64,000 bases of DNA, from positions 1,550,001 to 1,614,000 of the forward strand of contig NZ_CP047957.1 of NCBI RefSeq assembly GCF_014280035.1, written 5' to 3'. The position numbers and the translations under genes are program-made. A model generated the notes under the pieces. The model was not told where the DNA came from and did no database searches. It saw only the letters and a list, made by a program, of their open reading frames with translations. This stretch comes from Synechococcus sp. A18-25c. Lineage in GTDB: Bacteria > Cyanobacteriota > Cyanobacteriia > PCC-6307 > Cyanobiaceae. Every line of letters starts with the position of its first letter. Position 1 is the first letter of the stretch. Below, piece after piece: positions 18,659 to 22,173 of this stretch.

Positions 18659-20179
18659 TTACAGATCGACGCTGCCATCAAAGGTCGTGGACACAGCTTC
18701 GGTGGGGCGCTCCATCTGCAGATCCACACCGGGATTCGGATCTGCTAAGACCGGCTGTACTGGCGCATCATCCAGGTTGGCCCCTGAGGAATCAGCGGAC
18801 TGGCGATGAGCCACAGACAACTGCGGGCGAACAATCGGAGGTGAGGGGGTCTGACCCGACAGACCTTTCATCCAACCCCGACGCGCCACTTCATAGAGAC
18901 AGAGTGCAGTTGCAACCGAGGCATTCAGGCTCGGTGTCACCCCACGCAAAGGGATCCGGATGAGCTGATCACAATGGCGTCGGGTCAGCATCGACAGTCC
19001 CTGGCCCTCGGAGCCTGTGACGACGACCAACGGACCTTCAAGATCCACTTCCTCCAGGGTCTGATCTCCTTCTTCAGCCAGACCAATCACCCGGTAGCCG
19101 GCATCCTTCAAGGTCTCCAACGACCGGTTGAGATTGACAACGCGAGCCACGGGAAGATGTTCAAGTGCTCCGGCCGCCACCTTGGCCACAGAGCCCGTGA
19201 GGCCAGCGCTACGCCGCTGCGGCAACACCACGCCATGAGCGCCGAGTGCTTCGGCGGATCGCACGATCGCCCCCAGATTGTGGGGATCGGTGAGACCGTC
19301 AAGGGCCAAAAGGAGAGGCGCCTCCTGCAATGCGGCGCAACCTTCCACCAGATCCTCCAGATTCAGAGTGTCGGCCGCAGCCGTTTGCAGAGCAATGCCC
19401 TGGTGCACAGCGCCACCAGTCATCTGAGCCAAACGTGCCCAGGTGACTTCCTCCACCAGCACTCCAGACGCTTTCGCATCGCGCAACAACGCCATGAATT
19501 TGGGAGCGCTCCGCATCTCACTGGTGCACCAGATGCGATGGATGGGCCGACCGGCTTCCAATGCCGCCTGGGTGGCATGACGCCCCCAGAGCAGATCATC
19601 CGCGACACCCTCTGAGCCGTGAGCACTGGCCTCAGCGCGGGGTTGTTCGTCAAAACGCTGGTCCGGACGGTCTGAACGTCCTGGGCGCATGCCGCGAGCT
19701 TCACCATCTGAGACGCGACGGCCACCGGGGCGCCGGTCACCAAACCGGCGATCCTCTGAGCGGCGTTCATCAGAACGACGGTCGTTAAAACGGCGGTCGT
19801 CAAACCGGCGATCTCCAGAACGACGATCGTCAAAACGCCTTTGGTCAAAACGCCGTTGTTCAAAACGACGATCTCCACCTGAGCGCTCATCGAAACGACG
19901 CTCACGGCGATCAGCACGGCCCATGGGTCTGCCGCTGTCACGGGAGGAGCCTCGGAAGGAGCCACCACGGGAGGCAGGGCGTCCACCGAAGTCACCATCG
20001 CGGGAGCTGCGCCAAGACGACTCCGAGGCCCCCTCTTCACCATCACGGCGACGACCGCCGGACGGAGCTCCATCCAGACGCGGACGACGTCCGCGCGGCC
20101 CGCCACGTGACGGACGTCCACCTCCTGAGTCACCACCACGGGATGGACGTGGTGGGCGGCGGTCGAAGCGGGAGCTCAT
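18659..20179 (-). CDS. rlmB: SpoU-family rRNA 2'-O-methyltransferase with Arg/Asp-rich repeat N terminus
   Basis: A 506-residue protein, about twice the usual 250. The catalytic half is a complete TrmH/RlmB enzyme: substrate-binding domain (DLLWGRHATQAALEAGRPIH), motif 1 DGLTDPHNLGAIVRSAEALG, motif 2 VTGSEGQGLS, motif 3 IPLRGVTPSLNASVATALCL. It transfers methyl from SAM to a ribose of 23S rRNA or tRNA. Residues 1-190 are disordered and Arg/Gly/Asp-rich, with pentapeptide repeats RRFDD, RRSGD, RRFND, RRSDE at about residues 90-150, like RGG or RD tails that bind RNA. A 65-residue Pro/Ser tail follows the knot. It begins 11 bp after mrnC. Confidence 0.85.
   Translation of the reverse strand: MSSRFDRRPPRPSRGGDSGGGRPSRGGPRGRRPRLDGAPSGGRRRDGEEGASESSWRSSRDGDFGGRPASRGGSFRGSSRDSGRPMGRADRRERRFDERSGGDRRFEQRRFDQRRFDDRRSGDRRFDDRRFNDRRSDERRSEDRRFGDRRPGGRRVSDGEARGMRPGRSDRPDQRFDEQPRAEASAHGSEGVADDLLWGRHATQAALEAGRPIHRIWCTSEMRSAPKFMALLRDAKASGVLVEEVTWARLAQMTGGAVHQGIALQTAAADTLNLEDLVEGCAALQEAPLLLALDGLTDPHNLGAIVRSAEALGAHGVVLPQRRSAGLTGSVAKVAAGALEHLPVARVVNLNRSLETLKDAGYRVIGLAEEGDQTLEEVDLEGPLVVVTGSEGQGLSMLTRRHCDQLIRIPLRGVTPSLNASVATALCLYEVARRGWMKGLSGQTPSPPIVRPQLSVAHRQSADSSGANLDDAPVQPVLADPNPGVDLQMERPTEAVSTTFDGSVDL
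19715..19915 (-). repeat. 15-bp tandem repeat encoding RRxxD units
   Basis: Within rlmB, about ten degenerate 15-bp units encode Arg-Arg followed by Phe or Ser, a variable residue and Asp or Glu. Copies differ mostly at third positions, which suggests an older expansion kept at protein level. The array is in frame throughout. Boundaries are approximate. Confidence 0.7.
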
Positions 20180-20190
20180 GGAATCGATGG

Positions 20191-20601
20191 TTATGACAGG
20201 GCGGATTCGCTCTCCTCGAGGCGATCCAGTAGCTGGGCAAGCCGCGCTGGATTCTGCAAAAAGAGCCAGCCCACCATTGTCTCAAATCCTGTGGCCTGGC
20301 CATAGGCCGCGGGGTCACCGCCGCGAGGACCACGACCGGCACGATTGCGGCCCCGACGAACCAGATCCCTTTCCTCGTCCGTCAGCCAGGGGTCCAAGCG
20401 CTGCAGCGCAACCGCTTGTGCATCAGCACGAACTTCGGAGACAACCGCAAGGTGGAGATCTTTAGCGCGTCCGGCCTGACGGCAGTGACGAAGCCGTTGA
20501 TGCAGCTCCCAGACGGCATCACCTAGCCAGGCAAGCTGAAGGGGACCGAGATCGGACGCCCCTGCAGGAAGGGAATGCTGCAGCCGGATCCAGTCGGTCA
20601 A
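20191..20601 (-). CDS. mrnC: Mini-ribonuclease III
   Basis: A 136-residue protein with the RNase III catalytic fold without the dsRNA-binding domain: LGPLQLAWLGDAVWELHQR with the catalytic Asp, the middle helix DEERDLVRRGRNR, and YGQATGFETMVGWLFLQ carrying the last acidic residue. Mini-III trims 23S rRNA ends in Bacillus and cyanobacteria. Its ATG overlaps the TGA of the STAS gene by four bases, and rlmB follows 11 bp after, so an RNA-maturation pair (mrnC-rlmB) is translated together. Confidence 0.9.
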   Translation of the reverse strand: MTDWIRLQHSLPAGASDLGPLQLAWLGDAVWELHQRLRHCRQAGRAKDLHLAVVSEVRADAQAVALQRLDPWLTDEERDLVRRGRNRAGRGPRGGDPAAYGQATGFETMVGWLFLQNPARLAQLLDRLEESESALS

Positions 20602-20897
20602 GCAGCCAGTTGGGTGAAAGCGGATTCCAGATCATTCACCAGATGCAGGAAGCCCTCGAGGCGCACCAACTTCACGGTTTGGGTAACACGGGCGTTGCCC
20701 ACAACCACGAAACTGCGATTGGCGTCTTTGCACTGTTTCGCGAGCTGAACCAGTGCACCAAGCCCGGAAGAATCAAGGAAGTCAATCTTGCTCAGATCAA
20801 ACACTGCGGGTGAGGCGTTCGTCTTAAGAACGTCTCCCACGTAACTGATGAACTGCTTTTCGGAGTAAGCATCCAACTGTCCGGTGAAATGAAACAC
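20598..20897 (-). CDS. STAS-domain protein (anti-sigma factor antagonist type)
   Basis: From the GTG at 20895-20897 this is a 99-residue STAS protein: VFHFTGQLDAYSEKQF (first strand), VFDLSKIDFLDSSGLGALVQ with the Ser that SpoIIAA-type antagonists have phosphorylated, and RSFVVVGNARVTQTVKLV. Such proteins switch sigma factors or response systems by binding an anti-sigma kinase. The GTG lacks a ribosome site and begins inside the first strand. The frame stays open upstream, and a GGGAGG ends 9 bases before an in-frame ATC at 20961-20963, giving 121 residues beginning with TELQRLTVSLRGG after the initiator; that start may be the true one. The stop is coupled to mrnC. Confidence 0.85.
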   Translation of the reverse strand: MFHFTGQLDAYSEKQFISYVGDVLKTNASPAVFDLSKIDFLDSSGLGALVQLAKQCKDANRSFVVVGNARVTQTVKLVRLEGFLHLVNDLESAFTQLAA

Positions 20898-21027
20898 CAG
20901 ACAGGAATCTTGCTGTTCAAAGCCGCCCCGGAGCGAAACCGTCAGTCGCTGCAGTTCAGTGATGGGACCAGACCTCCCGCTTGGCGTCGTGCGAAGTGTA
21001 GTGATGCTGCACCACTCGCACCACGGT

Positions 21028-22173
21028 TCAGCGGCGATCTGACATCAGTGCAACGAACCTGGCGAAATGATGGTCTGCGTCGTGGGGGCCAGGACTGGCT
21101 TCAGGGTGGTACTGAACGCCGAAAATCGGCTGGTTGCGATGGGCCATCGCAGCCACGGTTCGGTCGTTGAGATTGAGATGGGTGATCTCAATGGTGTCCG
21201 CCGGCAGGCTCTCTGCATCCAACGCGAAACCATGGTTTTGGCTGGTGATTTCCACCTGACCGGTGGTTCCGCATGGATGGTTTAAACCTCGATGCCCATA
21301 ACCGAGCTTGAAGGTGGCTCCCCCCATAGCCAGACCAAGGATCTGATGGCCAAGGCAGATTCCGAATAGAGGAAGATTCTGTTGCTGCAACAGGCCTTTG
21401 GCCAGCTCGATGCCATGGGTCACTGCTGCGGGATCTCCCGGTCCATTGGAGAGGAACACACCCTCGGGCTGATGGGACAACACCGTGTCCAAATCGGTTG
21501 ATGCCGGTAGAACAGTCACCGAGCAACCGTGGCCGACCAAGCGATCGAGAATCGCCCGCTTGATGCCGAAATCGATGGCCACCACACGATAAGGATCCTG
21601 GGGTCTCCCGATCTGCAAACGCCGATCAAAATCGACCGTGCAAGGCTCATTGCAGGTGTAGGGCTCAGGGGTTGAGACCTTGTCAGCCAGGTTCAGACCC
21701 TCCATCGACGGAGCCGACCGCACCTGCTCCAACAGCTCCACCGGAGAGCGACCATCTGAACTGATCACTCCGTTCATGGCCCCGGTCTCACGCAGATGGC
21801 GGACGAGAGCACGTGTATCGATGCCATGGATGCCAATCACGCCATGGCTCGCCAACCAATCCTGGAGGCTTTGTTGAGAGCGCCAATTGCTGGCAAGAGG
21901 AGACATCTGACGCGCGATCAGCCCTTTTGCATGGGGCTTCTCAGCTTCTTGATCGTCAGGATTGACTCCGGTGTTGCCCAGCTCTGGATAGGTGAAGGTC
22001 ACCAGTTGCCCCGAATAACTGGGATCGGTCATCACCTCCTGATATCCCGTCATTCCCGTGTTGAAGACGACCTCTCCCACAACGCTGCCCGCGGCTCCAC
22101 AAGCCAACCCTGTGAACACCGTTCCATCGGCCAGCACCAGCAACGCCGGCTCCCTGGATGCAGCAACAATCAT
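21028..22173 (-). CDS. carA: Carbamoyl-phosphate synthase small subunit
   Basis: A 381-residue glutaminase subunit. The N-terminal half has [18 protein letters not shown] and [16 protein letters not shown]. The C-terminal class I amidotransferase carries the nucleophile Cys in [14 protein letters not shown] and the His-Glu pair in [12 protein letters not shown]. It supplies ammonia from glutamine to CarB for pyrimidine and arginine synthesis. trpD ends only 34 bp upstream, so it is probably in the same transcript, and the STAS gene follows. Confidence 0.97.

Follow-up and report, generated by a model that had tools for sequence, protein, structure and literature searches.

The STAS-domain gene at 20598..20963 on the minus strand of the 64,000-nucleotide stretch of DNA analysed here (the window) very probably begins at an AUC codon (20963-20961) that is set as the start by an upstream GGGAGG, and a codon of the same class, AUH (AUC, AUU or AUA, not AUG), is kept in this gene across the class Cyanobacteriia, most likely as a weak throttle on the anti-sigma factor antagonist that the gene encodes and perhaps as one responsive to IF3. 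The parts of this reading differ in strength: the position of the start is strongly supported by orthologue comparison, the throttling role is one that we infer, and IF3 sensitivity is speculative and the least certain of the three. The host genome consists of one contig of 2.51 Mb from a marine Synechococcus-like cyanobacterium.

Read from the AUC (20961..20963), the gene encodes 121 residues and ends at a TGA stop codon (20598..20600). The Shine-Dalgarno (SD)-like GGGAGG lies at 20973..20978, separated from the ATC by a 9-nt spacer (TCTGGTCCC), and the frame is bounded upstream by an in-frame TGA (21045..21047) 27 codons before the AUC, all on the minus strand. An earlier note on this DNA had proposed this ATC, nine bases downstream of GGGAGG, as the start, and the coordinates were confirmed; its further statement that no ATG, GTG or TTG occurs nearby in the frame held for all 49 in-frame codons after TGA 21047-21045 and before the GTG at 20897 (20895..20897, minus strand), which is the first canonical start codon in the frame. 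This GTG was rejected as the start. Its position, residue 23, falls in the second strand of a confident structural model, and a start there would remove the first strand, of which the note had said that the beginning would be lost; no SD-like site was found within the 20 nt 5' of it, as the note had also asserted. By itself, the arrangement GGGAGG-N9-ATC was at chance level in the window (2 matches vs 0.78 expected, with 13 of 100 shuffles reaching 2), and the case therefore rests on the orthologue comparison. The STAS gene was the only place in the window at which GG[A/G]GG and ATH were followed by an open frame of at least 100 codons with no canonical start upstream in frame.

The orthologue set comprised 251 distinct loci from the class Cyanobacteriia after identical and cut-off loci had been removed; outside Cyanobiaceae, about 110 genomes of the phylum proved on searching to carry the STAS gene, and 100 of them were taken. 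At the codon aligned with the AUC, ATT was found in 103 loci, ATC in 85, ATA in 61, and CTG and TTG in one each, so that 249 of the 251 carried AUH and, on the question raised in the earlier note of whether orthologues begin with ATG at this spot, neither ATG nor GTG occurred in any. Among 109 Cyanobiaceae loci (some of them duplicates) the counts were ATC 65, ATA 34, ATT 8 and CCC 2, with no ATG, GTG or TTG, and both CCC loci had an ATC with a G-rich site four codons further up. In the remaining families ATT or ATA, and rarely ATC, stood six codons 5' of LTVSLRG with AGGAGG directly upstream. Four loci considered as losses of AUH (L085, L096, L155 and L187) were rejected as such, since an AUH with an SD site was found 1-4 codons further up, which indicates that AUH had shifted and was not lost. 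Only two orthologues lacked AUH, L146 with CTG (preceded by AAGGAGG) and L228 with TTG; AUH is therefore not absolutely required, and these natural variants would be useful for testing start strength. The STAS regulator was present in nearly all cyanobacteria sampled, and the weak start seems, from its distribution, to have been kept since early cyanobacterial history. In one near-complete Cyanobiaceae genome the STAS gene (L229, G183:C4:10713-11060) contained three in-frame TAG codons, which may reflect a decayed gene, an assembly error or something odder.

The SD site was conserved together with the codon. A core match of at least 5 nt was present in 98 of 99 orthologues outside Cyanobiaceae, a length reached by 17% of shuffled regions, and in 89 of the 99 AGGAGG ended exactly 5 nt before AUH. 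Cyanobiaceae mostly carried a GGNGG G-run with a 9-nt spacer that fits the exact consensus less well and needs G-U pairing; the aligned G-run was found at -13, -11 and -10 in 93-97% of loci. A small hairpin that would sequester the Cyanobiaceae SD (GGG...CCC before the start) was considered and rejected, because its five possible pairs paired no more than shuffled partners did.

Four control genes show that AUH is not a default outcome of the method or of the lineage. When aligned in a similar way, 170 carA loci and 71 trpD loci all had canonical starts, rarely together with an SD, and mrnC had a canonical start in 185 of 188 loci; infC from 30 cyanobacterial genomes (L271-L300) started with ATG or GTG, or in one case TTG, and never with AUH. 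In the window, carA (21028..22173, minus strand; TIGR01368, 4.6e-144) is the upstream neighbour in the same direction as the STAS gene and a Mini-RNase III-like mrnC (20191..20601, minus strand; Pfam Ribonuclease_3, 2.1e-23) is a second conserved neighbour, within the order carA-STAS-mrnC-trmH (18659-22173), often with trpD upstream, that was kept in most sampled cyanobacteria (L231-L270).

The encoded protein is, as judged from profile and fold, a predicted SpoIIAA-type anti-sigma antagonist. It matched the STAS profile PF01740 at 63.1 bits (cut-off 22.6; 2.4e-17) and TIGR00377 at 61.4 bits (cut-off 53.45), and it scored 39.1 bits against the SpoIIAA equivalog TIGR02886, below the curated cut-off of 114.75, and is thus SpoIIAA-like, not SpoIIAA. 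An AF2 model (pLDDT 93.6) matched the folds of SpoIIAA, RsfB and RsbV in the PDB (Foldseek 1tid_B, TM 0.85). The phosphorylatable-type serine motif DSSGLG contains S65, invariant among 60 aligned orthologues, and S66, nearly invariant among them. A gene at G000:C1:1533246, with an HATPase_c_2 match and weak similarity to SpoIIAB chains (E 0.0017), is a candidate SpoIIAB-like kinase partner, and the genome contains three SpoIIE-type phosphatase genes.

The STAS protein is probably orthologous to Synechocystis Ssr1600, which acts as an anti-sigma antagonist in the control of SigC and is a phosphorylation target of Slr1861 (PMC12329169). The two share the SpoIIAA fold, the Ser-Ser phosphosite and four landmarks at a constant offset: L24, G43, S59 and S60 of Ssr1600 (PMC12329169) correspond to residues 30, 49, 65 and 66 counted from AUH. 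They differ in their apparent starts, that of Ssr1600 lying, by its published numbering, six residues after the AUH position. Because the offset is 6 throughout, the annotated Ssr1600 appears to start at residue 7, which suggests, from these four landmarks, that the published numbering is six residues short.

This numbering can also be taken at face value, in which case translation would start at a downstream canonical codon, GTG 20897 in the window and a TTG or GTG near residues 4-9 in relatives; residue 7 is TTG in 17 of 99 relatives, and the Ssr1600 version from residue 7 is active as a kinase substrate (PMC12329169). We nevertheless consider a downstream start very improbable, because the first downstream canonical codon wanders among orthologues (residues 4, 5, 7, 9, 11, 22, 23, 29 and others), because synonymous substitution at residues 3 and 5 marks them as coding, and because GTG 20897, which has no SD, falls within strand 2 and as a start would delete strand 1; the conserved SD, moreover, points to AUH. 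The converse arrangement, in which AUH is a conserved internal isoleucine and the start lies further upstream or the frame is entered by frameshift or readthrough from carA, would account for a codon that is only ATC, ATT or ATA. Another isoleucine column (column 58) likewise never turns to Met, the STAS frame in the window is open for 27 codons 5' of the AUC, and some relatives have an ATG, GTG or TTG in frame upstream of AUH. Against this, the codons that separate AUH from the upstream in-frame stop included no canonical start in 148 loci, in 80 of which the stop was at most 10 codons away, and in 24 loci the upstream stop was a TAG three codons before AUH that overlaps the SD. The earlier note had pointed to orthologues with another start further upstream as the finding that would speak against its proposal; many orthologues had an in-frame stop 3-10 codons upstream and no canonical start between.

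Substitution patterns bear on the same point. Outside Cyanobiaceae, codons -5 to -1, where they differed, were synonymous in 0-22% of pairs and codons 3, 5, 7, 8, 10 and 11 in 85-100%; around an unchanging SD the codons 5' of AUH varied as non-coding DNA does, with no coding signature there, and by this measure coding constraint sets in directly after the AUH codon. At residue 2, 94 of 97 orthologues outside Cyanobiaceae had Pro, Ala or Ser, as would be expected at a true N-terminus from which the methionine is removed. Neither coupling to carA nor readthrough from it was accepted as the cause of AUH, since AUH persisted in loci where carA was not found adjacent (L232, L247, L251, L257, L260, L264, L267 and L269). 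An internal isoleucine is thus extremely improbable, and it is set aside only because relatives have upstream stops and SD sites.

A start at AUH may also be real and yet non-adaptive, a frozen ancestral state that is tolerated through a strong SD. A parsimony count of start-codon changes, which is not a formal test, was made on a tree built from 250 protein sequences: two changes fell on the first base and none on the second, and the third, with about 24 changes, changed less than the four-fold sites of the same gene (57-97 changes), all of which would suit a frozen state. That there were about 24 third-base changes at all, with G entering this base only through changes to CTG and TTG, argues otherwise, as does the fact that AUG was one mutation away everywhere and was reached in none of the 251 loci when conserved four-fold sites have G in 23% of cases on average. 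Since third-base changes occurred without AUG despite this frequency of G, the absence of AUG appears unlikely to result from drift alone, although an internal isoleucine would look the same by the parsimony measure. On balance we regard a frozen state as improbable.

We favor instead the weak throttle, in which the SD-like GGGAGG would position the ribosome, translation would begin at AUC 20963-20961, and initiator tRNA would place there a methionine that is probably removed, because residue 2 is Thr. The weak AUH start, partly offset by a good SD, would hold the antagonist at a low but useful level and keep it in short supply compared with its kinase and anti-sigma partner, and antagonist synthesis might respond to IF3. 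Overexpression of Ssr1600 slows growth in high CO2, and its loss rescues an rpoZ deletion mutant (PMC12329169); the dose of Ssr1600 is thus critical, which fits a weak start with a strong SD that holds the antagonist in proportion to its partner.

Several known systems share these features. IF3 discriminates against AUH starts, which are weak (PMC9410913), and in S. aureus the combination of an AUU or AUA start with an extended SD yielded about 10% of the expression obtained from AUG (PMC13009471). As is proposed for the STAS gene, infC (AUU in E. coli, AUA in S. aureus) combines an AUH start with weak initiation, and it is autoregulated through IF3 (PMC9410913, PMC13009471); the STAS product, in contrast, is an anti-sigma antagonist, so there would be no autoregulatory loop by IF3 itself. 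The parallel with infC that the earlier note had drawn stood for the codon class and failed for cyanobacterial infC, whose starts were canonical in 30 of 30 genomes, so infC was rejected as a co-regulated AUH gene in cyanobacteria; because none of these starts was AUU, AUC or AUA, classical IF3 autoregulation by the start codon may be absent from cyanobacteria. In Firmicutes, ccpN (AUA) and cvfC1 (AUU) likewise carry a conserved AUH with a strong SD on a regulator (PMC13009471). Their output of about 10% of that from AUG was shown by experiment, whereas the STAS start is predicted from sequence, and their conservation extends across Staphylococcus or from S. aureus to B. subtilis, whereas the STAS AUH is classwide and uses all three AUH codons. 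The pcnB gene of E. coli, a different gene in a different bacterial group, has an AUU that limits protein synthesis, as Binns and Masters (2002) are cited in PMC9410913. By these comparisons the STAS gene is a new predicted member of the known conserved AUH starts with strong SD sites (infC, pcnB, ccpN and cvfC1), and one of unusually deep conservation. A literature search with incomplete coverage of subscription journals found no earlier report of an AUH start for the STAS gene, and none of ribosome profiling, N-terminal peptide or reporter evidence on its start.

The throttle may further act as a specific switch, in which shifts in IF3 or initiation stringency change the amount of antagonist and with it sigma factor use (SigC in Synechocystis), an extension of the throttle explanation that does not exclude it. 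GTG was absent and TTG occurred once among the 251 orthologues. CTG, the codon of one exception, is also IF3-sensitive. In addition, IF3 discriminates against this codon class in infC (PMC9410913), and ccpN AUA initiation varied with growth medium (PMC13009471). Cyanobacterial infC is itself without AUH, however, and a constant throttle explains the same sequences, so we hold such a switch to be possible but rather unlikely. Somewhat more doubtful still is a classwide coupling of sigma factor choice to initiation stringency, in which AUH would read the state of IF3 or the ribosome and thereby set the release of a growth-limiting sigma factor.

If the AUH start is true, it would be among the most deeply conserved of its kind, and it is invisible to gene finders limited to ATG, GTG and TTG; the STAS N-terminus would then likely be misannotated in the majority of genomes, and work on Ssr1600 may have relied on a protein that lacks six residues and on constructs that lack the native start. 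With one codon, one dose-sensitive regulator and a known growth effect, the gene would also be a simple system in which to ask why bacteria keep weak starts.

Two further features of the genome were observed. A region of about 13 kb (G000:C1:2391000-2403600; L002, L302, L309 and L310) contains a second STAS gene, an HATPase_c_2 gene and two SpoIIE-type phosphatase genes, and is likely a second partner-switching cluster. The TTG start of mrnC (20599-20601) overlaps the STAS stop codon, and in 162 of the 188 relatives examined the nearest start was TTG, suggesting either a further conserved weak start or coupled translation.
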